From the NCBI RefSeq assembly GCF_900143005.1, contig NZ_FRCS01000001.1:1-64000 (forward strand): a DNA stretch of 64,000 nucleotides, in the 5' to 3' direction. Position 1 is the first letter of the stretch. Each line of letters begins with the position of its first letter. The notes under the pieces were generated by a model. It was not told where the DNA came from. It did not search any database and saw only the letters and a program-made list of their open reading frames with translations. Shown in pieces: positions 49,700 through 62,857 of this stretch. Source of the DNA: Cryptosporangium aurantiacum (lineage in GTDB: Bacteria > Actinomycetota > Actinomycetes > Mycobacteriales > Cryptosporangiaceae). The translations under genes were made by a program, and so were the position numbers.

Positions 49700-51283
49700 C
49701 TATTCGGCGGTGGCCAGTTTTCGGGCCCAGAGCGCGAGCTGGGCCCGGAAACGGTCGCCGGGTTCGTCGAGGTGCCAGCCGAGTGCGTCCTCCACGTGGG
49801 CCAGCCGTGCCGCGACCGAGCTGTGGTGAAGATAGAGCGCGGCCGCGGCTTGGCGGAGTGATCCGGTGCGGCAGAACGCTTCCAGCGCGGCGACGTCGAG
49901 CGCGCCGCTGTCCGTGCGGGCCAGCGCGTCCAGGGCGCGGACGTCCGGCTGGTCGCGCAGCCGGGCGGTCGGGATTTCGGCGAGGAGCGCGAGCGGGCCC
50001 AGTGCGTCGTGGTCGACGACGGCGTCGCCGGGGTCGCCCGTCGGGCCACCCGCCGTGGTGGCGAACCGGAGCGCGAGGCGGGCCTGGGCCCAGGACGTCT
50101 CCGCGTCCAGGCCGTCCACGTTGCCGCCGACGCCGACCCGAATCCCGCTCGCCACCGAGCCCCGCCGAATCCCCGCGCTGGCTGAGCCGGTCGCACCCCG
50201 CGGACCGGCCGCGTTGGCCGTACCCCGCGGGCCGGCGGGGTTGCGCGGGCCGGCTGGGCCGGTCGCGTCGTGCGGGCCCGCTGGGCTGGTCACGCCGCGC
50301 GCGGCGGCTGGGCTGGTCGCGGCGTGCGGGCCGGCTGGGCCGGTCGCGCGCGGGCCGGGCGCGTTGGCAGGGACGGTCGCGCTGCTCGCGCCGCTGGCCG
50401 TGGGCGAGAAGCGGCGGCTGTCGGCGGCGCGGTGTTCGGTGGCGCGGTGTTCGGCGGCTCGGTCGCGGAGGGCCGCGCGCAGATCGTCGGCCGGTGAGCC
50501 GGTGCCGTCCCGGCGCTGCAGGAGCACGGCCGCGACCCCGCCGATCACCGCGACCCGCACCGATCGCACCGGCCTGCCCCTGGCGACCAGCGCGACGGCC
50601 TCCGCGCCGGGGTTGCGTCCCCGGTCGTCGGCCACCGCGAGGACCCGCACCGGCACGTGCGGCTCCAGCCCGAGCAGACGCAGCGCTCGGGTGCGGTCGG
50701 CCGCCGTCTCCCGGCCGGAGAGCACGAGTTCGACGAGCGCCGGATCGGCGAGGTCGGGCGTGCTGGCGCGATGCGGCCGAACCATCAGGATCCGGGCCGC
50801 GATCGACGCCCGCTCCAGGACCAGCTCGTCCAGCGGCGCCGGGCCGCCGGGCCGCTCCAGCCAGAGCCGCCCCGGCCCAAGGTCAACCTCCGCCGACGCC
50901 ACGTCCCGGCCCGTCACCGGCCCCCCATCCGTCACCGGCCGCCCATCCGTCGCGGGATACCGAGCCGGGGCGGGGTGCGCGTCCGTCGTGGGATGCGGGT
51001 CGGGTGCCGGGGGCTCGCCCGGCGCTCGGCGACCGTCGGAGGCCTGGGCGGCGCCGGGGGCGGGGGTGCTGCCCGGGAGGCGTTCGCCCTCGGCGTCGAA
51101 GCGCAGCACGCGGCCGTCGGGGAGCTCCAGCCCGCAGGCGCACTCGGCCAGGCCGGCCGTCGCTCGCACGAGCGCAGCGACGGTGGCGCGATGTTCCACC
51201 AGCGCGTCGAAGTACGCGATCACCCGGACCGCTGCCTCGGCGTCGGCGTCGAGCGCGGACAGCCGCAGCAACAGCCCCTTCAT
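49700..51283 (-). CDS. PucR family helix-turn-helix regulator with repeat-rich centre
   Basis: This gene encodes 527 residues. The N-terminal part fits a sensory domain (VRVIAYFDALVEHRATVAAL); a GGDEF-like/nucleotide-recognition part follows. The C-terminal PucR helix-turn-helix is clear: FCRTGSLRQAAAALYLHHSS, VAARLAHVEDALGWHLDEPG. About residues 285-375 are low-complexity Ala/Gly/Pro/Thr units such as GPRNPAGPRGTA and GPHDATGPAG. PucR proteins respond to purines, amines or amino acids. It is the third gene after the kinase and SIS genes (9-bp gap), so it probably regulates this catabolic region. Confidence 0.9.
   Translation of the reverse strand: MKGLLLRLSALDADAEAAVRVIAYFDALVEHRATVAALVRATAGLAECACGLELPDGRVLRFDAEGERLPGSTPAPGAAQASDGRRAPGEPPAPDPHPTTDAHPAPARYPATDGRPVTDGGPVTGRDVASAEVDLGPGRLWLERPGGPAPLDELVLERASIAARILMVRPHRASTPDLADPALVELVLSGRETAADRTRALRLLGLEPHVPVRVLAVADDRGRNPGAEAVALVARGRPVRSVRVAVIGGVAAVLLQRRDGTGSPADDLRAALRDRAAEHRATEHRAADSRRFSPTASGASSATVPANAPGPRATGPAGPHAATSPAAARGVTSPAGPHDATGPAGPRNPAGPRGTANAAGPRGATGSASAGIRRGSVASGIRVGVGGNVDGLDAETSWAQARLALRFATTAGGPTGDPGDAVVDHDALGPLALLAEIPTARLRDQPDVRALDALARTDSGALDVAALEAFCRTGSLRQAAAALYLHHSSVAARLAHVEDALGWHLDEPGDRFRAQLALWARKLATAE
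50160..50400 (-). repeat. Coding repeats of 18-30 bp in the pucR gene
   Basis: Near-identical GCGGGCCGGC/GGCTGGGCTGGTC-type units recur about ten times and encode GPAGP, GPRG and SPAGPH repeats. They interrupt the regulator between its sensory and DNA-binding parts. Confidence 0.65.
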
Positions 51284-51292
51284 ATGCGGAGG

Positions 51293-52255
51293 CTACTGCG
51301 CGAGCCACCAGGTCGCCGCGAGGACTTCGGCGACGAGCACCTCGGTCAGCACCCGGACGTCCGGGTCGTCGTCGCCGCGGTACCGGACCGACCCGGCCGC
51401 GCCCGCCACGTCGGCGCCGACGGACAACACGGTCGAGCCGCGCTCCCGCACCCACTCCATCGCCTGTGCGTCGTACCGCGACCCGGGGAACAGCAGCGCC
51501 CGGTAGTCGCGCGTCTTCGTGAGGTAAACGTCGACGTGAGCCCAGTCGCCGGTCTCGCACGCGTCGGCGGCGCGGCGCGGACCCTCCCGCACCATCAGCG
51601 CGGCCTGCTCCGCCGACGAGATCCGCTCGGCCGGTGCGATCGTCCAGACACCGTGCGGCCCGTCCAGCAGCGTCAGCGCCTGGTCCAGCCAACTGCTGCG
51701 GCGTTCGAGCAGGTCGGCGGTGGCGTCGGCGGCCCGCAGGCAGAGCCCGGGCAGGTCAGCCGGCTCGCCGGTCAGGTGCGCCTCCAACGCGCGGAGCTGG
51801 ACGAGCGTGTGCTGGAACGTCCGACACGCGACACCGCTCTCCTCGACGCCTGCCAGCATCGGGACGATCCGATCCGCCAGGCTTGCCAGCGGCGAGTCGA
51901 CGGTGTTGACGAGCGCGACGAGCGGCGCGTTCCCCGCATACCGCCCGGCGGCGTCGAGTGTCTCCCGGCTCCCCCCGGTCGCGGAGATCGGCACGACGAG
52001 CGTCTCCGGCCCGGCCGGGAACGACGCGTCGGCGGAGGCGTACTCGGCGACCGCGTCGACGCCGCGGGCCCGCAGCCGCAGCGCCGCGACCCGTGCGGCG
52101 TACCGGGAGCTACCCATGCCGAGGAACAGCACCCGCCGGACGCCGTCCGGCAGCCCGGCCCACGGGTTACCGTCGGAGAGCGCGTCGGCGAGGCTCGCGA
52201 GCGCTTCCGGCTTCCGTTCCAGGTCGGCGAGGAACCGTTCGGCTTGGGTGGTCAC
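51293..52255 (-). CDS. SIS-domain protein (GlmS isomerase-like or aminosugar deaminase-like)
   Basis: This gene encodes 320 residues with two SIS folds: VRRVLFLGMGSSRYAARVAA, VVPISATGGSRETLDAAGRY and the second half GVWTIAPAERISSAEQAALM, then RYDAQAMEWVRERG. The Ser/Gly-rich MGSSRY and SATGGSRET loops bind phosphosugars. It lacks a glutaminase domain, so it resembles the isomerase half of GlmS or FrlB/AgaS deglycases and aminosugar-6-phosphate deaminases. It overlaps the kinase gene by 4 bp, suggesting that it acts on the kinase product. Confidence 0.88.
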   Translation of the reverse strand: MTTQAERFLADLERKPEALASLADALSDGNPWAGLPDGVRRVLFLGMGSSRYAARVAALRLRARGVDAVAEYASADASFPAGPETLVVPISATGGSRETLDAAGRYAGNAPLVALVNTVDSPLASLADRIVPMLAGVEESGVACRTFQHTLVQLRALEAHLTGEPADLPGLCLRAADATADLLERRSSWLDQALTLLDGPHGVWTIAPAERISSAEQAALMVREGPRRAADACETGDWAHVDVYLTKTRDYRALLFPGSRYDAQAMEWVRERGSTVLSVGADVAGAAGSVRYRGDDDPDVRVLTEVLVAEVLAATWWLAQ

Positions 52256-53547
52256 GAATCTCCTTCGGGAAGGGTCCGGTCTTCGGCGGGGAACATGCGG
52301 CGGAGCGTGCCCATCGGGGCGTAGCGCCAGCGGGGGAGAAGCCGCGCCGCGTAGACGAGTTCACGGCACTCCTGCTCGACCTCGAACGCGGCGAGCAGCC
52401 GCTCGTCGAGCAGCCCGCCGCCGCCGGCGGCGGTGGCGGCGGTGGCGCGGTATGCGGCGAGGAACCGGCGGCGCGCGTCGTGGATCCAGGCGTCGATCTC
52501 GGCCGTGCGGGTGCCGGAAGTCCGGCGATCCGCGATCCGCCCGACGTGGTCGAGGCTGGTGAGCATCTGGGCGACGTCGCGCGCGGCGGGCTCGGGCGGC
52601 ACCGAGCCGTCCGGGCTGGGCGGCACCGTGGGGTTGCCGTCGAAGTCGACGATCGCGTAGCCCTCGCGCCAGCGGAGGACCTGGCCGACGTGCAGGTCAC
52701 CGTGGATCGGCAGCAGGGGTGTCGGGCCGGCAATCGTCCGCAAAGTGGCCACCGCACTCCGCAGCCGGTGCGCGTTCGCCAGGAGCCACGCGCGGTCCTC
52801 CGCCACCCCGACGGCCGGATCCGCGTACTCCCCGTCGTTGGGCGCCCCCGCCGGAAGCTCCCCGCCGGCCCCGGCCTCGCCGGTCCCGGTCGGGGGCGAG
52901 GCCCTTTGGGCTCGGGCGGTCAGCGCCACCGCCTCCTCCACTGCGGCTTCGGCGCGGTCGGCCCACTGGATGAGTGCGGTGGTGCCCGCTGAGCGGCGCG
53001 GGGCCGGGAACACCTCGGACGGCGTCGCGAAAGCCGTGTGCAGCTCCGCGGTCAACGCCCCGAGATCGGCGGCGAAGTCAGCTCCGGCGCCGGCCAGCAC
53101 AGCGTCCACACACCAGTCCCAGCCGTCCACGGCGTCCGGCAAATACTCGACGACGAGGGCCAGCAGAACCTCGACATCCGACAAAAGTACAGAAACCGTC
53201 GCGAACGGCCGCGCGGTCGCGGTGAAGCCGACCGCCGCCAGGTGCGCGAGCACCGGCGGAGCCGGGTGCGCACGCCGCTCCGGCCGCGGCAGCCATTTGA
53301 CCACCAGACGCTCGCCGACCACGACCGACTCGTTCGTCTGGTCGACGGTGATCGCCCGCTCGCCCCGTGCCGACGGAACCGGCGAGAACGTCCGCACCAC
53401 GAACGGCGCCGGCACCGGATCGCCCGCGGCCAGCGCGGCCACCAACGCTTCCGACGCCCCGGCGTCGTGGGTCGCCGACAGCACCCCGTCTGCGCTGCTG
53501 GTCAGCCGGATGCTCGGCCCGTGGTCGGCCAGTAGCCAGCGTGCCAC
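52252..53547 (-). CDS. Maltokinase/aminoglycoside-phosphotransferase-like aminosugar kinase (glucosamine-kinase-like)
   Basis: This gene encodes 431 residues. An N-terminal cap domain (about 1-90) leads to VVVGERLVVKWLP, with the ATP-binding Lys. The catalytic loop is LLPIHGDLHVGQVLRW (Asp in HGDLH) and the metal site is YAIVDFDGNPTVPPSP (DFD). This arrangement is shared by maltokinases and the actinobacterial glucosamine kinases described as GlcNK. A Gly-rich loop (about 218-240) is an insertion. The SIS partner favours a glucosamine or other aminosugar substrate. The GTG overlaps nothing upstream; the gene diverges from the polyamine-type transporter. Confidence 0.82.
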   Translation of the reverse strand: MARWLLADHGPSIRLTSSADGVLSATHDAGASEALVAALAAGDPVPAPFVVRTFSPVPSARGERAITVDQTNESVVVGERLVVKWLPRPERRAHPAPPVLAHLAAVGFTATARPFATVSVLLSDVEVLLALVVEYLPDAVDGWDWCVDAVLAGAGADFAADLGALTAELHTAFATPSEVFPAPRRSAGTTALIQWADRAEAAVEEAVALTARAQRASPPTGTGEAGAGGELPAGAPNDGEYADPAVGVAEDRAWLLANAHRLRSAVATLRTIAGPTPLLPIHGDLHVGQVLRWREGYAIVDFDGNPTVPPSPDGSVPPEPAARDVAQMLTSLDHVGRIADRRTSGTRTAEIDAWIHDARRRFLAAYRATAATAAGGGGLLDERLLAAFEVEQECRELVYAARLLPRWRYAPMGTLRRMFPAEDRTLPEGDS

Positions 53548-53558
53548 GCCGCTCCGAT

Positions 53559-53575
53559 CTGAATCCGAATTGAAA
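53559..53575. promoter_or_regulatory. 17-bp motif shared by two divergent promoters (copy 1)
   Basis: On the minus strand this reads TTTCAATTCGGATTCAG. It matches the copy at 58379-58395 (TTTGAATTCAAGTTCAG) at 13 of 17 bases. It lies 11 bp before the kinase gene start and about 125 bp before the transporter operon. Confidence 0.5.
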
Positions 53576-53699
53576 AATTTACATAACTAAGCAGCTCAAC
53601 GAGCCTCCAGAAGTCTTGTCCACGCTGACGGTCGATGCAACACTTCCCAACCATCCCGCTCAGTGGCGCGCTGAGCTCCAGACGCAAGGGAGTGAGCCG

Positions 53700-54809
53700 G
53701 TGTCTCGACTCGGACGGTTTCGCCGCCAGTCGGCGGTGGCGCTGAGCACGGCCGCGTTACTCGCCATCGCGGCCTGCGGGGGCGGCGACGACACGAGCGC
53801 CGCCGCTCCGGCGAGCCTCGACCCCTCGGCCGACCTGTCGACCCAGAAGCTGACCGTCTCCAACTGGGACGGGTACATGCCGGAGGACTTACCGGCGAAG
53901 TTCAAGTCCGCGGTCGGCCCGACGGTGACGGTCACCAAGCACGCCACGAACGAAGAGGTCATGGCGAAGCTGACCGCGGGCGGCGACAGCGGCATCGACG
54001 TCGCGTTCGTCTCCGGTCAGTTCGCGCAGGCACTCAACGAGCAGGGCCTGCTGGAGCCGATCCACGCCGACCTCGTCCCGAACCTGAAGAACCTCTACCC
54101 GCAGGCCACCCAGCTCGCTTACGACAAGGGCAACACGTTCTCGGTGCCCTACACCTGGGGAACAACCGGTCTCTGCTATCGCACCGACCTCACCGGCTAC
54201 ACCCCGGACAGCTGGAACGACCTGCTGGACCCGAAGCCCGCGCTCCGCAAGAAGGTCACGATGATGGCCACCGAGCGCTGGCTGATGCTCCCGGCTCAGA
54301 AGGCGCTGGGCTACTCGGCGAACACCACCGACGAGTCCGAGATGGACAAGGTCAAGGAGTCGCTGGTCAAGGCCAAGTCGAGCCTGCTGGCCTACGACGA
54401 CACGACGTTCGGCGACCGGCTGAAGTCCGGTGAGGCCGCGCTGGTCGAGTCGTGGGATGGGTGGTGCCCCACCGACCAGTCGAACATCAAGTTCGTCGTG
54501 CCCAAGGAGGGCAGCGACGTCTGGGTCGACACGATGGTCGTCCTCAAGTCGTCGAAGAACAAAGAAGCGGCACACGCGTTCATCAACTACATCCTCGAGG
54601 CGGGTAACCACGCCTGGGCCGCGCAGAACATCCTCTACAAGGTGCCGAACGAGGCCGCGATGAAGACGCTCGACGCGAAGCTGCTCGCGAGCTACCCGCA
54701 CCTGGCGATGACCCCGGCCGACCTGCTGAAGCAGGAGGGTTACGTCGACCTGGGCGAGGCCGCGACCACGTACACCCGGATCGCGACCGAGGTGACGGCG
54801 GCCAAGTGA
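53700..54809 (+). CDS. PotD/YdcS-type polyamine ABC transporter substrate-binding lipoprotein
   Basis: This gene encodes 369 residues from GTG 53700 (AAGGGAG seven bases upstream). The lipoprotein signal ends at the Cys in LAIAACGGG. The mature protein is a PotD/PotF-like type II binding protein: LTVSNWDGYMPEDLPAKFKS, DVAFVSGQFAQALNEQGLLE, VPYTWGTTGLCYRTD, ESWDGWCPTDQSN. These proteins bind spermidine, putrescine or related amino compounds. The permease and ATPase genes follow with 4-bp overlaps. Confidence 0.92.
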   Translation: MSRLGRFRRQSAVALSTAALLAIAACGGGDDTSAAAPASLDPSADLSTQKLTVSNWDGYMPEDLPAKFKSAVGPTVTVTKHATNEEVMAKLTAGGDSGIDVAFVSGQFAQALNEQGLLEPIHADLVPNLKNLYPQATQLAYDKGNTFSVPYTWGTTGLCYRTDLTGYTPDSWNDLLDPKPALRKKVTMMATERWLMLPAQKALGYSANTTDESEMDKVKESLVKAKSSLLAYDDTTFGDRLKSGEAALVESWDGWCPTDQSNIKFVVPKEGSDVWVDTMVVLKSSKNKEAAHAFINYILEAGNHAWAAQNILYKVPNEAAMKTLDAKLLASYPHLAMTPADLLKQEGYVDLGEAATTYTRIATEVTAAK

Positions 54810-55801
54810 CCGAACCGACCACTCCCGCGGCGCCGGCCTCTTCCGAGGTCGGCGCGCCGGCCCCCGACGGAAGCGCGCCGGGACGCGCGCCGGCCGCTGA
54901 CGGGGACGCCGTGCCGGGACGCGCGTCGGTCGCGGGGCGCGCGGCGAAGGCCCGCACGACGCGCGGCCTCTGGGCCGCCCGAGCGGCCCTGCTCGGCCCA
55001 GGTGTCGTCTACCTCGCGGTGTTCCTGCTCGTGCCGCTCGCGCTGGTGCTGAGCTACGCGTTCTTCCGGCGCGGCCGGTTCGGCGGCGTCGTCCACGAGG
55101 TGACCTTCGAGAACTTCAGCCGGCTCGCCGACGAGATCTACGTGCAGGTGCTCACCGACTCGCTGGTGATCGCCACCGTCACCACGGCGCTCGCGCTCGC
55201 GCTCGGCTATCCGGCCGCGTACGCGATCGCGAAACTGCCGCGCCGGTGGCGGACCGTCGCACTGGTGCTGGTCGTGCTCCCGTTCTGGACGAACTTCCTG
55301 GTCCGGACGTACGCGTGGATCGTGCTGCTCTCCACCCAGGGCGTCGTGAACAAGGCGCTCACCGGCATCGGCATCATCGACAAGCCGCTGGAGATGCTCT
55401 ACAGCACGCCGGCCGTGGTCGCCGGGCTGCTCTACGCCTACCTGCCGCTGATGATCCTGCCGCTGTACTCCGCGATCGAGCGGCTCGACGACAGCCTCGC
55501 CGAAGCCTCCGTCGACCTGGGCGCGAGCAAGGCGTCCACGTTCTGGCACGTGACGCTGCCGCTCACGTTGCCCGGCGCGCTGACCGGCTGCATCTTCGTG
55601 TTCGTCCCGAGCCTCGGCAACTTCATCGTGCCGGAGCTGCTCGGTGGCGGACGCACGGTGATGGTCGGCAACCTCATCCGCGACCAGTTCCTCAAGGCCC
55701 GCGACTGGCCGTTCGGCGCCGCGCTCGCGCTGACGCTGCTCGCGTTCCTGGTGGTCCTACTGCTGGCCCAGTCCTGGGCGAGCCGACGGAGGGCGACATG
55801 A
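54806..55801 (+). CDS. potB: Polyamine-type ABC transporter permease (PotB-like)
   Basis: This gene encodes 331 residues. The first 55 residues are Ala/Pro/Gly-rich and cytoplasmic; then about six helices follow, starting with LLGPGVVYLAVFLLVPLALV. The EAA loop is EASVDLGASKASTFWHVTLP, facing the ATPase. FWTNFLVRTYAWIVLL is conserved in PotB. The GTG shares bases with the upstream stop and it overlaps potC by 4 bp. Confidence 0.93.
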   Translation: MTEPTTPAAPASSEVGAPAPDGSAPGRAPAADGDAVPGRASVAGRAAKARTTRGLWAARAALLGPGVVYLAVFLLVPLALVLSYAFFRRGRFGGVVHEVTFENFSRLADEIYVQVLTDSLVIATVTTALALALGYPAAYAIAKLPRRWRTVALVLVVLPFWTNFLVRTYAWIVLLSTQGVVNKALTGIGIIDKPLEMLYSTPAVVAGLLYAYLPLMILPLYSAIERLDDSLAEASVDLGASKASTFWHVTLPLTLPGALTGCIFVFVPSLGNFIVPELLGGGRTVMVGNLIRDQFLKARDWPFGAALALTLLAFLVVLLLAQSWASRRRAT

Positions 55802-56559
55802 GCAAGTCCATCCTCGGCGTGGTGTTCGCGTTCCTGTACGCGCCGATCGTCGTCCTGGTCGTGATGTCGTTCAACGCCTCCGACAGCCCGTACGCGCTCG
55901 ACGGCGTGAGCACCCGCTGGTACGCCGAGCTCGTCGGCGACGAGCAGATCCGAAAAGGGCTGATCAACACGCTGATCGTCGCCACCGGGTCGACCGCGCT
56001 GGCCGCGGTGTTCGGGACGCTGCTCGCGGTCGGGCTCGCTCGCTACACTCGATCCCGGGCACTGGACGCACTCGCGCTGGCCCCGGCCGTGCTGCCGGAC
56101 ATCGTGCTGGCGATCGGGCTGCTCGCGTTCTGGTCGCTGCTGCAGGCGACGCTCGGCCTGCACTCGGTGCTGCTCGCGCACCTGCTGTTCGGCACCGCGT
56201 TCGTCACCGCGGTGGTGCGCGCACGGCTGCACCAGGTGGACGGTTCGCTGGAGGAGGCGTCCCGCGACCTGGGCGCCGGGCCGGTGACCACGTTCCTGCG
56301 GATCACGCTGCCGTCGCTGGGGCCCGGCATCGCGGCCGGGTCGCTGCTGGCGTTCACGCTCTCGATCGACGAGTTCGTGATCGCGTTCTTCACCGCAGGC
56401 CCGGACCAGCCGACGCTGCCGATCGTCATCTACTCGATGATGCGGTTCGGCGTGACCCCGGAGATCAACGCGCTGGCCACGGTGCTGCTCGCGGTGAGCT
56501 TCACGGTGGTGCTGGCCGCACAGCGGATGAGCCGCCTGACCGATTCCCTAGGACGATGA
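55798..56559 (+). CDS. potC: Polyamine-type ABC transporter permease (PotC-like)
   Basis: This gene encodes 253 residues with about six membrane helices (ILGVVFAFLYAPIVVLVVMS, ALALAPAVLPDIVLAIGLLA) and the EAA loop EASRDLGAGPVTTFLRITLP. GGAGG is five bases upstream of ATG 55798. FSIDEFVIAFF-type segment (LSIDEFVIAFFTAGPD) is typical of PotC. It forms the channel with PotB. Confidence 0.93.
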   Translation: MSKSILGVVFAFLYAPIVVLVVMSFNASDSPYALDGVSTRWYAELVGDEQIRKGLINTLIVATGSTALAAVFGTLLAVGLARYTRSRALDALALAPAVLPDIVLAIGLLAFWSLLQATLGLHSVLLAHLLFGTAFVTAVVRARLHQVDGSLEEASRDLGAGPVTTFLRITLPSLGPGIAAGSLLAFTLSIDEFVIAFFTAGPDQPTLPIVIYSMMRFGVTPEINALATVLLAVSFTVVLAAQRMSRLTDSLGR

Positions 56560-57563
56560 TGCTCTCGATCACCGGTGTTTCCCGCCGTTTCGCCGACGTC
56601 CAGGCTCTGGACGACGTCTCGCTGGACATCGCGTCCGGGGAGTTCTTCGCGTTGCTCGGCCCGAGCGGCTGCGGCAAGACCACGCTGCTGCGGATCATCG
56701 CGGGCTTCGAGTCGCCCGACTCCGGCAGCGTGACATTGGACGGTGACGACCTGCTCGGCGTCCCGCCCAACAAGCGGCCGGTCAACCTGATGTTCCAGTC
56801 GTACGCGCTGTTCCCGCACCTCTCGGTGGAGAAGAACATCGGGTACGGGCTGGCTCGGGAAGGCCGGCCTCGCGCGGAGATCCGGGCCCGGGTCGCGGAG
56901 GTGCTCGACACGGTCGGTCTGGCCGGGGTCTCGGGTCGACGTCCGCATCAGCTCTCCGGCGGGCAGCGGCAGCGGGTCGCGCTGGCCCGCGCGATCGTCA
57001 AGCGGCCGCGGTTGCTGCTGCTCGACGAGCCGCTGTCCGCGCTCGACCGCAAGGTGCGGGCCGAGATGCAGCTGGAACTCAAGCGGCTCCAGCACGAGGT
57101 CGGGATCACGTTCGTCGTGGTCACCCACGACCAGGAAGAAGCGATGTCGCTGGCGGACCGGATCGCGGTGCTGGAAGCGGGCACCGTACGCCAGGTCGCC
57201 CCGCCGGTCGAGCTGTACGCACGGCCCGCCGACCGGTTCGTCGCCGGCTTCGTCGGCTCGAACAACATCGTGTCCGCTGACCTCGCGGTCAGCCTCGGGC
57301 TACTGCCCGCGGGTGCTACTGGCGCGCTCACGGTGCGCCCCGAAAACGTCCAGGTGGACGAGGGGGCAGCGGGCGGTCGGGGGGCGCTGACCGGAACCGT
57401 GCTGGACACTGTGTTCCACGGGGGCTCGTCACGGATCGCGGTGAAGGTGGACGGTCTGGACGAGCCGGTACTGGCGACGCGTCCCGGCGCGCCGACCGTG
57501 GCCCCCGGCGCCGAGGTGCGGCTCTCGTGGCGCCCGGAGGACGCAGTACTGGTTCCCGCGTGA
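56556..57563 (+). CDS. potA: Polyamine-type ABC transporter ATP-binding protein (PotA-like)
   Basis: This gene encodes 335 residues. The ABC domain has Walker A GPSGCGKTTLLR, Q-loop FQSYALFPHLSV, signature LSGGQRQRVALAR, Walker B LLLLDEPLSALD and switch His in VVTHDQEEAM. A C-terminal TOBE regulatory domain (about 240-335, VRPENVQVDEG) is present. ATG 56556 overlaps the potC stop by 4 bp and a second ATG follows. It energises the potB/potC channel. Confidence 0.94.
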   Translation: MMLSITGVSRRFADVQALDDVSLDIASGEFFALLGPSGCGKTTLLRIIAGFESPDSGSVTLDGDDLLGVPPNKRPVNLMFQSYALFPHLSVEKNIGYGLAREGRPRAEIRARVAEVLDTVGLAGVSGRRPHQLSGGQRQRVALARAIVKRPRLLLLDEPLSALDRKVRAEMQLELKRLQHEVGITFVVVTHDQEEAMSLADRIAVLEAGTVRQVAPPVELYARPADRFVAGFVGSNNIVSADLAVSLGLLPAGATGALTVRPENVQVDEGAAGGRGALTGTVLDTVFHGGSSRIAVKVDGLDEPVLATRPGAPTVAPGAEVRLSWRPEDAVLVPA

Positions 57564-57652
57564 GCCGGGGGCGGCGCGCGTTGCCGCGAACCTGGGCTCT
57601 AAGCGCGCCTTACAGCCCGGTTACGCGTCATGCGGCGGTGAGACGTCGCGTG

Positions 57653-58300
57653 TCAGGCGCGGGGGCGGCGGGCGGTGGTGCGCTTCGGCTTCGGCGGCTC
57701 GGTGAGCGGGTTTCCGGTGGCCATGCGCGCGTAGTCGACGATCAGCTCGACCGCTTCGGCGTACCCGATCGTGGGGTGCCTGGCGACGATCCGGTAGCCG
57801 TACGCGTCTTCCAGCGCCACCAGGTTCCGCGCGATCACGGTCGCGCCGCTGGCAGGCGTGAACACACCCCGGGCCACGCCGGACTCGAGGATGCCCTGGT
57901 ACATCGAGACCTGCCGGTCGAACAGCGTCGTCAGCAGCGCCGCGTACACCCGGCTGCGGCCGGCGGCGCCGCCCAACTCGCAGAGCAGCCGGACGTCCGC
58001 GTCGTCGGAGCCGGTCGGCAGACCGGACCGGATCGTGACCAGCAGCCGCTCGACCGGGTCGTCCAGCGCCTCGATCGCCTTCACCCGCAGTTCGTAGAAC
58101 CGCTCCATGCCCGCGTGGTGGGCGTCGATCAGCAGTTCCTGGATGTCCGGGTAGTGGTACAGCACCGCACCGGACGTCAGGCCGGCCTCCTCGGCGATCT
58201 GGTTGAGGAGGACACCCTCGGCGCCGTGCCGCACCATCGCGCGGCGGGCCGCCTCGATCAGGTCGATGCGACGTTCCGAGCGAGGCTTGCGTCCAGGCAT
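57653..58300 (-). CDS. TetR family regulator of the amine catabolic region
   Basis: This gene encodes 215 residues. The ATG at 58298-58300 has GAGGT five to six bases upstream; a TTG one codon earlier is less likely. The helix-turn-helix is RAMVRHGAEGVLLNQIAEEA, GLTSGAVLYHYPDIQELLID. The C-terminal domain (AHHAGMERFYELRVKAIEAL) resembles BetI-like TetR proteins that sense small amines or their aldehydes. It diverges from the glycosyltransferase operon and is convergent-free behind potA. The 17-bp motif in its promoter region and near 53559 may be its operator. Confidence 0.9.
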   Translation of the reverse strand: MPGRKPRSERRIDLIEAARRAMVRHGAEGVLLNQIAEEAGLTSGAVLYHYPDIQELLIDAHHAGMERFYELRVKAIEALDDPVERLLVTIRSGLPTGSDDADVRLLCELGGAAGRSRVYAALLTTLFDRQVSMYQGILESGVARGVFTPASGATVIARNLVALEDAYGYRIVARHPTIGYAEAVELIVDYARMATGNPLTEPPKPKRTTARRPRA

Positions 58301-58378
58301 CAATTACCTCGCGTTGGTCGGCGGTTGAAATCCTCAACAGGATACTTCCCGCTGGTTGACGTCGCTGGTTGCGTTGCA

Positions 58379-58395
58379 TTTGAATTCAAGTTCAG
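58379..58395. promoter_or_regulatory. 17-bp motif shared by two divergent promoters (copy 2)
   Basis: TTTGAATTCAAGTTCAG contains the 10-bp perfect palindrome TTGAATTCAA (58380-58389). It lies between the TetR gene and the glycosyltransferase gene, 24 bp before the latter. A TTGACG at 58356-58361 is a possible -35 for the plus-strand operon, in which case the motif would overlap the -10. Confidence 0.5.
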
Positions 58396-58419
58396 TAGCT
58401 GGCACCCAGGGAGGGTCCG

Positions 58420-59715
58420 ATGACCGAGCGACCGCTGACCGTGCTGTTCATGCCGGAGAGTGCGTACGGTCCGACGAACAACTGCATCGGCATCGGGCAC
58501 GTGCTGGCGCAGCGTGGTCATCGGGTGGTCTTCGCCGCCGAGGCGTCCTGGAAGGGCAAGCTCACCGCGCTCGGTTTCGAGGAGGACCTCGTCGACCTGG
58601 CGCCGCCGCCCCCGGCCGACGCTCCGGAGCAGGACGCCGGCCAGTTCTGGAAGGACTACATCGCCGCGTCGGCACCGGAGTTCCGGAAGAGCACGTTCGA
58701 CCAGCTCGAGACCGTTACGGCGCCGATCTGGAAAGAACTGGTCGACGGCGCGAAGTACTGCGAGCCCCAGCTCCGCGCGATCATCGAGCGCACCCGGCCG
58801 GACGTCATCGTCGAGGACAACGTGCTGGCGTTCCCCGCACTCACCACCGCAGGGGTGCCGTTCGTCCGGATCGTGTCCTGCAACCCGCTCGAGGTGAAGG
58901 GCGCCGACGTCGCTCCGGTGTTCTCCGGGTACGCGGCCGACGACCGCTCGCAGTGGGACGCGTTCCGCACCGAGTACGACCGCACGCACCGCCCGCTGTG
59001 GGAGGAGTTCAACGCCTGGGTCGTCGAGCAGGGCGCCGAGCCGCTGCCCGACCTCGAGTTCATCGGCGAGGGCGCGCTCAACCTGTACGTCTACCCGGAG
59101 GTCGCCGACTACACCGACGCGCGGCCGCTCGGCCCGACCTGGCACCGGCTGGACTCCTCGGTGCGGGAGACCGACTCCGCGTTCGAGCTTCCGGCGGAGA
59201 TCGCTTCGGGTGAGGGCAAGCTGATCTACTTCAGCCTCGGTTCGCTCGGTTCGGCGGACGCCGACCTGATGCGCCGGATCATCGCCGCGCTCGCTCGCAC
59301 CCCGCACCGCTACATCGTGTCGAAGGGCCCCCTGCACGAGGAAATCGAGCTGGCGTCGAACATGTGGGGCGCGGAGTTCCTGCCGCAGACGTCGATCCTG
59401 CCGCTGGTCGACCTGGTGATCACCCACGGTGGCAACAACACGACGACCGAGGCGCTGCACTTCGGCAAGCCGATGATCGTCCTGCCGCTGTTCTGGGACC
59501 AGTACGACAACGCCCAGCGGGTGCACGAACTCGGGCTCGGCGGCCGGCTGAGCACGTACACGTTCACCGACGAGGAGCTGTACGGCGCGCTCGACCGCTT
59601 ACTGACCGACGCCGCGCTGGCCGACCGGCTGGCGGCGGCGAGCGCCGAGATCAAGGCCAGGGACGGGCTGCGCCGCGCCGCCGACCTGATCGAGTCGGTC
59701 GTCGAGGGCAAGTGA
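58420..59715 (+). CDS. GT1-family glycosyltransferase in the amine catabolic operon
   Basis: This gene encodes 431 residues. It has a UDP-sugar glycosyltransferase (MGT/UGT) fold: an N-terminal acceptor domain (TVLFMPESAYGPTNNCIGIG, HVLAQRGHRVVFAAEASW) and a C-terminal donor site (IYFSLGSLGSADADLMRRII, LPLVDLVITHGGNNTTTEAL, HFGKPMIVLPLFWDQYDNAQ) with the HGGxxTxxEAL nucleotide motif. Such enzymes glycosylate small molecules. GGAGGG lies upstream of ATG 58420. It overlaps the amine oxidase gene by 4 bp, tying it to amine oxidation. Its acceptor is unknown; macrolide detoxification is a less likely alternative in this context. Confidence 0.9.
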   Translation: MTERPLTVLFMPESAYGPTNNCIGIGHVLAQRGHRVVFAAEASWKGKLTALGFEEDLVDLAPPPPADAPEQDAGQFWKDYIAASAPEFRKSTFDQLETVTAPIWKELVDGAKYCEPQLRAIIERTRPDVIVEDNVLAFPALTTAGVPFVRIVSCNPLEVKGADVAPVFSGYAADDRSQWDAFRTEYDRTHRPLWEEFNAWVVEQGAEPLPDLEFIGEGALNLYVYPEVADYTDARPLGPTWHRLDSSVRETDSAFELPAEIASGEGKLIYFSLGSLGSADADLMRRIIAALARTPHRYIVSKGPLHEEIELASNMWGAEFLPQTSILPLVDLVITHGGNNTTTEALHFGKPMIVLPLFWDQYDNAQRVHELGLGGRLSTYTFTDEELYGALDRLLTDAALADRLAAASAEIKARDGLRRAADLIESVVEGK

Positions 59716-61139
59716 GTACGGACTTTTTTGCGGGCATCACGCCCGGATCCGATGTCGACGCGGCGCTCGCCGACGCCGAGCCCAAGGTCTTCTGGACCGA
59801 CCGGCCCGACGCCCCGGCGCCGCGCGACCCGGTCACCGGCACCAGCGCGGACCTCGTCGTCGTCGGTGGTGGGTTCACCGGCCTCTGGACCGCGATCCTC
59901 GCCAAACAGCAGGACCCGTCGACCGACGTCGTCCTCCTCGAGTCGCAGCACGTCGGTTACGGCGCGAGCGGCCGGAACGGCGGGTTCGTCTCGGACTCGC
60001 TGACCCACGGCCTCGCGCACGGGTCGTCCCGCTGGCCGTCCGAGGTCGAGACTCTGGTCGAGCTGGGGCGGCGCAACGTCGCCGAGATCGCGTCGACGTT
60101 GGCCGCCAACACCATCGACGCCGACCTGCGGCTGGTGGGAAAAACGACGGTGGCGGTCTCGCCGTACCAGCTGGAGTACCTCCGCGGCCTGGCCGAGCTG
60201 CACCGAGCCCAGGGCGACGAGGCGGTGCTGCTCGACGCCGCGGAGATGCGCGCGGACGTGGACTCGCCGACGTACCTGGGTGGGGTGCGGTTGCCGAGCG
60301 CGGGCGGGCTGGTCGACCCCGGGCGGTTGACGTTCGGGCTGGCGCGGCTCGCTGATTCGCTCGGCGTACGGCGGTACGACCGGTCACCGGTTTCGGGGCT
60401 CACCCCGGGCGGTGGTGAGGTGGAAGTACGGACGCCGACCGGGACGGTGCGCGCTGGTCGGGTCGCGCTGGCGACGAACGCCTACCCGGCACCGCTGAAG
60501 CGGGTGCGGCCGTTCGTGCTTCCGGTCTACGACCACGTGCTGGTCACCGAGCCGTTGTCGTCCGAGCAGTGGGACGCCCTGGGCTGGGCGGAGCGGCAGG
60601 GGCTCACCGACGCCGGCAACCGGTTCCACTACTACCGGCCCACCGCCGACGGCCGGATCCTCTGGGGCGGCTACGACGCGCTGTACCACTTCGGCGGGCG
60701 GGTGCGCGCGTCGTACGAGCAGCGAAAAGCCACCCACCGGCGCCTCGCCGCGCACTTTTTCGCGACGTTCCCGCAGCTGGAGGGCGTTCGGTTCACGCAC
60801 CGCTGGGGCGGGGTGATCGACTCGACGAGCCGGTTCACGCCGGTGTTCGGCACGGCGTCGCGCGGGCGGATCGCGTACGCCGTGGGTTACACCGGGCTCG
60901 GCGTCGCGTCGGCGCGGTTCGGGGGCCAGGTGATGCTCGACCTGCTCGCCGGACGCGACACCGAGGCCACCCGGCTGGGCATGGTGCGGCGCCGCCCGGT
61001 GCCGTTCCCGCCGGAACCGCTGCGGTGGCCGGTCGTGCAGCTCACGCGCGGTGAGCTGATCCGGTCCGACGCCCGGGGCGGTCGCCGCGGTCCGTGGCTC
61101 CGCCTGCTCGACCGCTTCGGCGTCGGCTTCGACAGCTGA
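59712..61139 (+). CDS. FAD-dependent amine oxidoreductase (PuuB/DAO-like)
   Basis: This gene encodes 475 residues. After a 45-residue N-terminal extension, the dinucleotide-binding fold has LVVVGGGFTGLWTAILAK and VVLLESQHVGYGASGRNGGF, typical of gamma-glutamylputrescine oxidase and related DAO-family enzymes. Later blocks are AGRVALATNAYPAPLKRVRP, RFHYYRPTADGRILWGGYDA and AYAVGYTGLGVASARFGGQV. It should oxidise a primary or secondary amine to an aldehyde. The GTG shares bases with the glycosyltransferase stop. The ALDH gene is 311 bp downstream beyond a repeat tract. Confidence 0.9.
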   Translation: MSTDFFAGITPGSDVDAALADAEPKVFWTDRPDAPAPRDPVTGTSADLVVVGGGFTGLWTAILAKQQDPSTDVVLLESQHVGYGASGRNGGFVSDSLTHGLAHGSSRWPSEVETLVELGRRNVAEIASTLAANTIDADLRLVGKTTVAVSPYQLEYLRGLAELHRAQGDEAVLLDAAEMRADVDSPTYLGGVRLPSAGGLVDPGRLTFGLARLADSLGVRRYDRSPVSGLTPGGGEVEVRTPTGTVRAGRVALATNAYPAPLKRVRPFVLPVYDHVLVTEPLSSEQWDALGWAERQGLTDAGNRFHYYRPTADGRILWGGYDALYHFGGRVRASYEQRKATHRRLAAHFFATFPQLEGVRFTHRWGGVIDSTSRFTPVFGTASRGRIAYAVGYTGLGVASARFGGQVMLDLLAGRDTEATRLGMVRRRPVPFPPEPLRWPVVQLTRGELIRSDARGGRRGPWLRLLDRFGVGFDS

Positions 61140-61450
61140 CGCACCCGGCCTGCACGACCCGCTCGACCCGGCCTGCTCGACCCGGCCTGCCCGACCGCTC
61201 GACCCGGCCTGCTCGACCCGGCCTGCCCGACCGCTCGACCCGGCCTGCTCGACCCGGCCTGCCCGACCCGGCCTGCCCGACCCGGCCTGCCCGACGCTCG
61301 ACCCGGCCTGCCCGACGCGGCCGGCCCGGCCTGCCCGACGCGGCCGACCCGGCCCGGCCGACCCGGCCGGCCCGGCGGACTCGGCCTGGTCGCCCGCGGC
61401 GGGCCTGGCCGCGAGCCGGCGCCGCTGTTACGACCTACTCAGGAGACCGC
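61140..61450 (+). repeat. GC-rich tandem repeat tract between amine oxidase and ALDH genes
   Basis: Units close to CTGCTCGACCCGGC and CTGCCCGACCCGGC recur about 15-20 times between 61146 and 61380. They also form a higher-order period of about 36 bp (CTCGACCCGGCCTGCTCGAC pattern). The frame is open, giving Pro/Thr/Arg-rich low-complexity sequence, but no start or ribosome binding site is evident before the ALDH gene's AGGAG at 61440. It is probably non-coding. Confidence 0.75.
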
Positions 61451-62857
61451 ATGACGATCATCGTGAACCCCGCCACCGGAGAGCCGGCCGCGGAGCTGGA
61501 CGACACCCCGGTCGAGGACGTCGCCGCAGCGGTGACCGCGGCCCGGACGGCGTTCGGCGCCTGGCGGGACACCACGCCGGCCGAGCGTGCCGGGCTGCTC
61601 CTCAAGCTCGCCGACCTGGTCGAGGCGAACGCCGACACGCTGACGAAGTTCGAGGTGGAGGACTCCGGGAAGCCGGTGCCGGTGTTCCGCGACGGCGAGC
61701 TGCCGTTCGCGGTCGACAACCTGCGCTTCTTCGCCGGCGCGGCCCGGTCGCTGGCCGGTACCGGGGCCGGCGTCCTCTCCGCGGGATACACGTCCATGCT
61801 GGTGCGGCGCCCGGTCGGCGTCGTCGGCGCGATCGCCCCGTGGAACTTCCCGCTGATCATGGCGGTCTGGAAGATCGGACCGGCACTGGCGGCGGGCAAC
61901 GCGGTCGTGATCAAGCCCGCGCCCCAGACGCCGCGGTCGACGCTGCTGCTCGGCGAGCTGGTCGCGGCAGCGGGGGCACCGGAAGGGCTGGTGCGTGTGG
62001 TGCTCGGCGGCGGCGACGTCGGATCCGCGCTGGTCACCGACCCCGGCGTCGACATGGTGAGCCTCACCGGCTCCAGCGAGACCGGACGCGCGGTGATGAG
62101 CGGGGCGGTGTCCGGCCTGAAGCGGCTGCACCTGGAGCTCGGCGGCAAGGCGCCGGCGCTGGTCTTCGGCGACGCCGACCTGGAGGAGATGGCCACCGCG
62201 GTGGCGCTGGGCGCGACGTACAACACCGGGCAGGACTGCACCGCGGCCACCCGCGTGTACCTGGAGCGTTCGGTCTGGGACGCCGGCGTCGAAGCGTTGC
62301 GGGCGGCGCTGGCGCGCGTCCGGGTGGGTGACCCGGCGGGCGCCGAGACCGACATCGGCCCGATGGTGTCCGCGGCCCAGCGGGATCGGGTGCACGGGTT
62401 CGTCACGCGGGCGGTCGCCGCGGGTGCCCGGATCGCGACCGGAGGTGTGCTGCCGGAGGGCCGGGGGTTCTACTACCCGCCGACGCTGCTCGTCGACGCC
62501 GGGCAGGACAGCGAGATCGTCCAGCGCGAGGTGTTCGGACCGGTGCTCGTCGCGGTGCCCTTCGACTCCGAGGGCGAGGGCATCGCGCTCGCCAACGACA
62601 CCCCGTACGGGCTGGCCTCGTCGGTGTGGTCCCGGGACGTGGCGCGTGCGCTGCGGGTCGCCCACCGGCTCGACTTCGGGACGACGTGGGTCAACGATCA
62701 CCTGCCGCTGGCGTCCGAGGCTCCGCACGGCGGCATCAAGGCGAGCGGTTTCGGCACCGACATGAGCGAAGGCGCAGTCCAGGAATACACGGTCACCCGC
62801 CACGTCATGCTCAAGCACGCCGCCCCCACCCCCCGCGATTCCTTCCGCCCCGCGTAA
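61451..62857 (+). CDS. Aldehyde dehydrogenase, gamma-aminobutyraldehyde type (PatD-like)
   Basis: This gene encodes 468 residues, with AGGAG before ATG 61451. It oxidises an aminoaldehyde to the acid with NAD. Motifs are APWNFPLIMAVWKIGPALAA, the Glu in LELGGKAPALVF and the catalytic Cys in NTGQDCTAATRVYLE. The GQDCTAA block is characteristic of gamma-aminobutyraldehyde dehydrogenases (PatD/YdcW/Prr), as opposed to the GQVC of many others. Together with the amine oxidase it would convert putrescine-like amines to GABA-like acids. In E. coli patD also sits beside a PotD-type transporter. Confidence 0.94.
   Translation: MTIIVNPATGEPAAELDDTPVEDVAAAVTAARTAFGAWRDTTPAERAGLLLKLADLVEANADTLTKFEVEDSGKPVPVFRDGELPFAVDNLRFFAGAARSLAGTGAGVLSAGYTSMLVRRPVGVVGAIAPWNFPLIMAVWKIGPALAAGNAVVIKPAPQTPRSTLLLGELVAAAGAPEGLVRVVLGGGDVGSALVTDPGVDMVSLTGSSETGRAVMSGAVSGLKRLHLELGGKAPALVFGDADLEEMATAVALGATYNTGQDCTAATRVYLERSVWDAGVEALRAALARVRVGDPAGAETDIGPMVSAAQRDRVHGFVTRAVAAGARIATGGVLPEGRGFYYPPTLLVDAGQDSEIVQREVFGPVLVAVPFDSEGEGIALANDTPYGLASSVWSRDVARALRVAHRLDFGTTWVNDHLPLASEAPHGGIKASGFGTDMSEGAVQEYTVTRHVMLKHAAPTPRDSFRPA

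Follow-up and report, generated by a model that had tools for sequence, protein, structure and literature searches.

The association of a SIS-domain protein, a glucosamine (GlcN) kinase and a GT1 glycosyltransferase (GT) was published with the kinases SjGlcNK and MsGlcNK by Manso et al. (2019; PMC6520443), whose accessible text reads the trio as secondary metabolism, reports the kinase from several actinobacterial orders and, in Streptacidiphilus, places genes for PGM and a UTP-glucose-1-phosphate uridylyltransferase beside it. The same three gene families stand in the same grouping at 49.7-62.9 kb of the DNA examined here (the window: the whole analysed stretch of 64,000 nucleotides of Cryptosporangium aurantiacum, which is the start of contig C1, NZ_FRCS01000001.1, of a 9.58-Mb genome), and the window kinase bears the published signature; different are its score of 266 bits, which is below the NCBIfam cut-off, and the setting among genes of amine import and oxidation. 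With the Puu pathway (PuuA-PuuB-PuuC-PuuD) the locus shares Pot-type transport, a flavin adenine dinucleotide (FAD) amine oxidase, an aldehyde dehydrogenase (ALDH) and possibly a logic of tagging, oxidation and release, but it has neither the ligase nor the gamma-glutamyl hydrolase and carries the GT, kinase and SIS genes instead. The deglycases of the Fra, Frl and Gfr systems are themselves SIS proteins. In these systems the sugar of a sugar-amine is phosphorylated and then removed by the deglycase, with a kinase serving in FraD/FraB and FrlB (PMC9609667) and a phosphotransferase system in the case of GfrE/GfrF (PMC12675984); unlike the scheme considered below, they take glycated substrates from outside and, in the accessible text of these sources, no UDP-sugar GT is described, and the activity of the window SIS protein is only predicted.

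The analysis identified the GT, the glucosamine-kinase-like enzyme and the SIS protein, rather than the GT and the oxidase, as the conserved core, and the amine genes that often accompany them suggest, without proving it, that an amine carries a temporary sugar tag during its breakdown. The trio itself was already published; new here are the amine setting, the carriers with 1.3-Mb genomes and the proline at the position of the usual catalytic histidine of the GT. In the open-licence literature searched we found no description of the amine-catabolic setting or of the histidine loss, only chemical synthesis for glycosylated polyamines, nothing about this module under putrescine or polyamine combined with glycosyltransferase and glucosamine kinase, and no follow-up work on the GlcN kinase beyond the 2019 paper.

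Protein families were assigned by profile searches, except for PotC, which was assigned from homologues in syntenic loci. A scan of the collection yielded 391 stretches encoding the GT, and the best 80 of these, all from actinomycetes, were kept as the set of GT loci. The class-wide sample was an even draw of 394 genomes from 138 genera, in which the kinase was scored as present at E 1e-25. Apart from the window's own locus the GT genomes gave 57 regions; 53 of these were read (all but G240, G249, G393 and G454) and scored at fixed thresholds for a set of amine genes (Pot, oxidase, ALDH, aminotransferase), alongside 20 control stretches of equal size whose positions were picked by hand in carrier genomes and are not a random draw. 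The GT alignment comprised 133 rows (the partial GT of L191 was left out) representing 125 distinct sequences, and some strains occur in both samples (e.g., L142 and L029). The comparison set of related oxidases without an adjoining GT comprised 16 loci, among which L205, L207 and L211 come from genomes carrying the GT elsewhere.

An earlier interpretation of the window from its letters alone (the sequence-only reading) had drawn attention to the overlap of the GT stop with the oxidase start, and this overlap is present (GTG at 59712, TGA at 59713-59715). The pair was rejected as a conserved unit, since the oxidase directly follows the GT in only 14 of the 80 loci and its family is far wider than that of the GT, with relatives in 204 of the 394 genomes as against 58 for the GT; in the class-wide GT regions an oxidase was present in 13 of 53. 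Among the 80 loci the GT has a divergent TetR gene at its flank in 70, an ALDH gene no more than 4.5 kb downstream in 71, at least three of the four Pot transporter genes upstream in 67, a nearby kinase in 68 and a nearby SIS gene in 64; all of these surround it together in 59. Class-wide, the GT was found in 58 genomes and 33 genera at 55-80% identity, as a single copy in 56 of the 58 carriers, whose genomes range from 1.3 Mb to over 10 Mb. The kinase was present in 46 of the 394 genomes and the GT in all 46 of them (in 45 by search, in one through fragments on two contig ends, L208 and L209, one of which is beside an oxidase), and both lie on one contig at most 12 kb apart in 41. The distances of GT, kinase and SIS protein correlate at 0.92-0.94 over 70 rows, a value that shared ancestry alone would raise too.

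Thirteen GT genomes were without a kinase at the threshold. A weaker match stands beside the GT in G011, G210, G211, G245, G332 and G457; the weaker match of G406 is on a contig other than the GT contig, which ends early, and G131 and G179 carry the GT at the end of a contig or on one of 3.2 kb. In Acrocarpospora (L045, L062, L063 and L071; L150 is alike) a pair of solute-binding protein (SBP) and GT genes stands apart from the remaining genes, and in G361 the SIS, kinase, Pot, TetR, oxidase and ALDH genes are on a separate contig (L210). At E 1e-60 the GT was not matched in three further genomes of the window's genus (G001-G003) or in one further genome of its family (G004), so that the cluster is patchy here and was perhaps acquired. 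Two tandem GT copies with no kinase or SIS genes nearby were seen in L162 (G293) and L166 (G268), the sole two-match carriers among the 58.

At least one gene of amine uptake or oxidation was found in 29 of the 53 GT regions and in none of the 20 control stretches; the kinase is present in 43 and the SIS gene in 40 of the same regions. The trio is found beside a class-III-type aminotransferase and an ALDH in L168, L169 and L172, and an aminotransferase-ALDH-Pot-oxidase cluster ends in the GT in L190. Saccharopine-dehydrogenase-like genes are located directly before the GT in L188 (L188:8029-9195) and some 4 kb downstream of it in L190 (L190:13378-14589), and might hint at the substrate.

The window GT matches PF00201 with 72.9 bits (cut-off 19.5), has a C-terminal donor domain of the UDPGT/EryCIII-like type and adopts the GT-B fold according to a fold search. 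Its nearest solved relatives are the spider-mite enzymes UGT202A2 and UGT203A2 (E 1.7e-71 and 2.4e-65, the next match being at 5.7e-23; template modelling scores of 0.81-0.90 at 30-32% identity in the fold search), some of whose structures were solved with plant flavonoids, and the solved structures next in likeness to the model are OleI, Kcn28 and OleD. The usual catalytic base of GT1 enzymes is a histidine in a GHxN motif near the N-terminus. It is replaced by proline (Pro18 in the window) in all 133 rows, whereas the spider-mite enzymes have the histidine and the five aligned PDB relatives read GH where this family has GP. Of the six other GT1-like proteins of the genome four have GH at the N-terminal motif, and those of L014 and L017 gave no match in a plain pattern search. 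E13, D133 and E158 are invariant across the alignment and E132 is found in 130 rows. A search of open-licence papers on the catalytic site of UGT202A2 gave nothing of use. The human enzymes UGT2B10 and UGT1A4, both N-glucuronidating, are without the same histidine according to the accessible text of two papers (PMC8781437, PMC5075577); its absence from some GT1 enzymes means that the loss bears on mechanism and not on family membership, and in the window GT it would fit an amine acceptor without proving one.

By signature and similarity the window kinase appears to be glucosamine-kinase-like. Among solved structures the glucosamine kinase 6hwj is matched at E 2.2e-61, and the sequence contains D284-x-H286 and, from residue 392, the published signature Q-x2-RE-x2-YA-x3-LP-x-W, which is exact in 79 of 94 aligned rows, D-x-H being present in 94 of 94. 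The NCBIfam cut-off mentioned above is that of the GlcN-kinase equivalog NF041273 (550 bits); it is passed with 596.5 bits in L111, from a genome of the window's order, by a kinase whose neighbouring GT is 64% identical to the window GT. For SjGlcNK a Km of 8 mM for GlcN was reported, and N-glycosylamines are absent from the substrate panel listed in the accessible text (PMC6520443). The window SIS protein was identified by PF01380 (33.1 bits, cut-off 25), reaches 34.3 bits with the NagB-II model (cut-off 430), so that it is placed in no subfamily, and has only distant similarity to solved SIS proteins; Foldseek ranked GlmS and GlcN-6-P deaminase structures at the top and did not separate a deaminase from a deglycase. 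Its residues E224 and H240, 16 positions apart, are invariant in 104 of 104 rows. Judged by their spacing, they may be the counterparts of the acid-base Glu/His pairs of GlmS and FraB, the loop 226-248 of the model being of low confidence (predicted local distance difference test below 50).

Among the 27 PDB matches of the window SBP 22 were named spermidine, putrescine or polyamine proteins, including PotD (1pot, E 3.6e-33). Of the residues W34, Y37, D168, E171, W229, W255, D257 and Y293, which form the pocket of PotD, the SBP keeps W, Y, W, W, D and Y and has D168 and E171 replaced; a Trp at the position of Glu171 and a second, nearby Trp within WDGW are each present in 91 of 92 rows. The name PatD-like that the sequence-only reading gave to the dehydrogenase holds, with 621.7 bits for NF010000 (aminobutyraldehyde dehydrogenase; cut-off 615), and PuuB-like was a loose name for the oxidase: it does belong to the DAO family, but it reaches no NCBIfam cut-off (best model TIGR03329, 240 bits versus 633) and its best solved relative is sarcosine oxidase beta. 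Its closest paralogue (58%; L010/L106, same genome, C22:80391-81758) adjoins a gene resembling an amidohydrolase by eye. Other actinobacterial Pot-oxidase clusters (L107, L193 and similar) likewise hold Pot genes, a DAO oxidase, an ALDH and, in some, an aminotransferase, but their oxidase and SBP lineages are separate from those of the window: in the oxidase tree none of the 28 GT-cluster rows falls within the clade (support 0.99) that unites 17 other oxidases, and six comparison SBPs have 25-29% identity to that of the window, the SBP of L190 being the exception to this separation. One such cluster, L107, is in the same genome as the window (its aminotransferase and oxidase were identified by Pfam, its ALDHs, its SBP and its Pot genes by eye), and a 1.3-Mb genome holds both cluster types (L170 and L207). 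The separate lineages, the SBP pocket with its kept amine-binding positions and its Trp changes, and the presence of both cluster types in one 1.3-Mb genome suggest that the substrate is probably amine-like and other than plain putrescine or spermidine.

Of the readings considered, a removable sugar tag accounts for the largest number of genes; it is unproven. In its favour stand the restriction of the kinase, at E 1e-25, to genomes with the GT, the several amine settings around the GT, the loss of the GT histidine and the precedent of a sugar being removed from an amine by phosphorylation and a deglycase. We infer the N-glycosylation, its donor, the order of steps and the release as follows: the Pot-type transporter would bring in the amine, to whose nitrogen the GT would transfer a sugar, probably glucose from UDP-glucose; the tagged amine would be oxidised, by the FAD oxidase where present and then by the ALDH; the kinase would phosphorylate the sugar moiety of the oxidised product, and the SIS protein, as deglycase or deaminase, would free sugar phosphate and an amino acid. 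The genes for PGM and the uridylyltransferase beside the trio of Streptacidiphilus would close the sugar cycle. That the conserved module tags, oxidises and releases in this way is put forward tentatively, as a serious possibility that falls short of an even chance. It is rather unlikely, in our estimate, that it extends to a whole class of amines degraded with a sugar as the handle replacing glutamate, the sugar being recycled and the trio serving this cycle and not antibiotic glycosylation. If true, sugar-tagged amines would represent a new catabolic strategy, could account for the poor Km of the characterised kinase toward free glucosamine and would provide a source of bacterial N-glycosyltransferases for aliphatic amines; the proposal also gives a testable function to an orphan trio and to a GT1 clade that is usually single-copy in genomes of 1.3 to over 10 Mb.

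Several observations weigh against a sugar tag. The simple N-glucosides that alkyl amines form are easily hydrolysed. In 66 of the 80 loci the GT is not directly followed by the oxidase, no amine gene was found at the thresholds used in 24 of the 53 GT regions (several of them short contigs), and L111, L112, L177, L183 and L184 have the trio without amine genes in the stretch read. Despite the GT, only weak, unlinked kinase matches were obtained in G151, G241, G268 and G293, and among five Streptomyces GT genomes L068 has no kinase match at 1e-6 and L092, L093, L095 and L097 have weak ones, with Pot genes upstream of the GT in L068, L092 and L095 though no close kinase is there; release by kinase and SIS protein is therefore not general unless another enzyme serves in such carriers. 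The accessible text on the characterised GlcN kinases has them act on free 2-aminoglucose (PMC6520443), and that on UGT1A4 reports that this enzyme, though without the histidine, is able to form O-glucuronides (PMC8781437).

The strongest rival is the import of a ready-made amino-sugar-type or glycosylated amine (a glycated polyamine, an N-alkyl glucosamine or glucosamine), from which the kinase and the SIS protein would split the sugar as phosphate while the oxidase and the ALDH degrade the amine, with only a side role left to the GT. The glucosamine-kinase type of the kinase and the GlmS/GlcN-6-P deaminase type of the SIS protein agree with it, the two conserved Trp residues of the SBP could stack on a sugar, and the second Pot-oxidase cluster in the 1.3-Mb genome makes plain putrescine or spermidine improbable. 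It nevertheless leaves unexplained the GT itself, the finding of the kinase only with the GT, and the trio loci that have no nearby transporter; a Km of 8 mM would also be poor for a scavenger of GlcN (PMC6520443, accessible text). We consider it somewhat unlikely. A detoxifying GT, conjugating a toxic amine or aldehyde intermediate whose sugar is salvaged by kinase and SIS protein where these are present, would fit the GT carriers without kinase, the closeness to the spider-mite enzymes with their flavonoid-bound structures and the divergent TetR gene of 70 of the 80 loci, but the invariant N-terminal active-site region over the 133 rows suggests one defined acceptor and makes this improbable.

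Manso et al. (2019) regard the trio as biosynthetic, with GlcN being activated and the GT decorating a secondary metabolite. That it was published as part of predicted biosynthetic clusters, in Streptacidiphilus together with PGM and UDPGP genes (PMC6520443, accessible text), speaks for this view, as does the likeness of the GT model to OleI, Kcn28 and OleD after the spider-mite enzymes. A GT that is single-copy in 56 of 58 carriers, 55-80% identical and spread over 33 of 138 genera, 1.3-Mb genomes included, with amine genes in 29 of 53 regions, speaks against it, and we regard a biosynthetic role as unlikely. Ordinary polyamine catabolism with the GT as a chance neighbour would suit the ordinary families of the transporter, oxidase and dehydrogenase; it is already contradicted by the conservation of the GT surroundings (all five components in 59 of 80 loci, amine genes in 29 of 53 regions versus 0 of 20 controls) and is highly improbable.

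The sequence-only reading had further taken the lack of a PuuA-like gene as a clue. The lack was confirmed, as Gln-synt_C had no match in C1:1-64000 and all eight matches of the genome are elsewhere, and no glutamine-synthetase (GS)-like or PuuD-like gene was matched in any of the 53 GT regions. The clue is weak: a GS-like neighbour is absent also from the 16 related oxidase loci, 13 of which carry PotA, PotB and PotC genes, and this, with the GS-like genes elsewhere in the genome, leaves the contrast with PuuA little weight. One of the eight GS-like genes (L099) has a Peptidase_C26 gene and ALDH frames in its neighbourhood, and gamma-glutamylation may well be present in this organism. In Streptomyces coelicolor, according to the accessible text, the gene for the gamma-glutamylpolyamine synthetase GlnA3 (SCO6962) is located away from those for transport and oxidation around SCO5655-5676 (PMC5403932); another synthetase of this kind is GlnA2 (PMC8998196). 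Of the interpretation as a whole, the togetherness of GT, kinase and SIS protein, the frequent amine cluster, the GlcN-kinase signature and the histidine loss of the GT were borne out, and the GT-oxidase linkage and the argument from PuuA were not. Replacement of PuuA by the GT in small genomes was considered and rejected, the GS-like counts of 45 genomes showing no pattern; in family f40 there are 2-4 GS-like copies in three GT carriers (G332, G348, G457) and 2-6 in 20 genomes without the GT.

The arrangement of the locus is given in Table 1, with the PucR, SIS and kinase genes leftward, the SBP, PotB, PotC and PotA genes rightward, TetR leftward, and the GT, FAD oxidase and ALDH genes rightward. 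All genes named in the sequence-only reading are present as open frames at the places given there; overlooked was the TetR gene between potA and the GT gene.

Table 1. Predicted genes of the locus, with positions in the window and the basis of each assignment
Feature	Position	Strand	Basis
PucR-type transcription regulator, C-terminal HTH_30, low-complexity Gly/Ala/Pro-rich insert	49700..51283	-	Open reading frame (ORF); PF13556 E 2.2e-12; tandem repeats
SIS-domain protein, GlmS-isomerase/GlcN-6-P deaminase type	51293..52255	-	Profile and structure searches, alignment
Glucosamine-kinase-like enzyme	52252..53547	-	6hwj E 2.2e-61; signature motifs
PotD-like SBP	53700..54809	+	Likely start GTG 53700 by inspection; ORF from 53616
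PotB-like permease	54806..55801	+	ORF, profile search
PotC-like permease	55798..56559	+	ATG 55798 overlaps PotB stop; homologues in syntenic loci (query from 55804)
PotA-like ATPase	56556..57563	+	ORF, profile searches
TetR-family regulator, divergent from GT	57653..58303	-	Profile searches
GT1 glycosyltransferase; Pro18 at canonical His position	58420..59715	+	Profile, structure, alignment
DAO-family FAD oxidase; start overlaps GT stop	59712..61139	+	Profile searches; start GTG 59712
Aminobutyraldehyde-dehydrogenase-type ALDH	61451..62857	+	NF010000 over cut-off; ATG 61451

The ALDH start is most likely the ATG at 61451, which stands behind AGGAG, rather than the ORF start at 61094. Between the oxidase stop and the ALDH start a GC-rich tandem repeat array with units of about 14 and about 36 bases occupies 61143-61388, and because of this array the ALDH frame is open upstream, giving the long ORF from 61094. 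Within the PucR gene, positions 50229-50358 encode a collagen-like Gly-Pro-Ala repeat insert. A simple palindrome scan of three gaps in the window for a shared operator returned weak, unshared palindromes only. A NIT-domain sensor histidine kinase borders the GT cluster in L019 and 54 other loci, mostly downstream of the ALDH gene and in some on both sides, and is accompanied by three small proteins (about 140, 134 and 194 amino acids) in 50, 54 and 54 loci, respectively. This set resembles a conservon.

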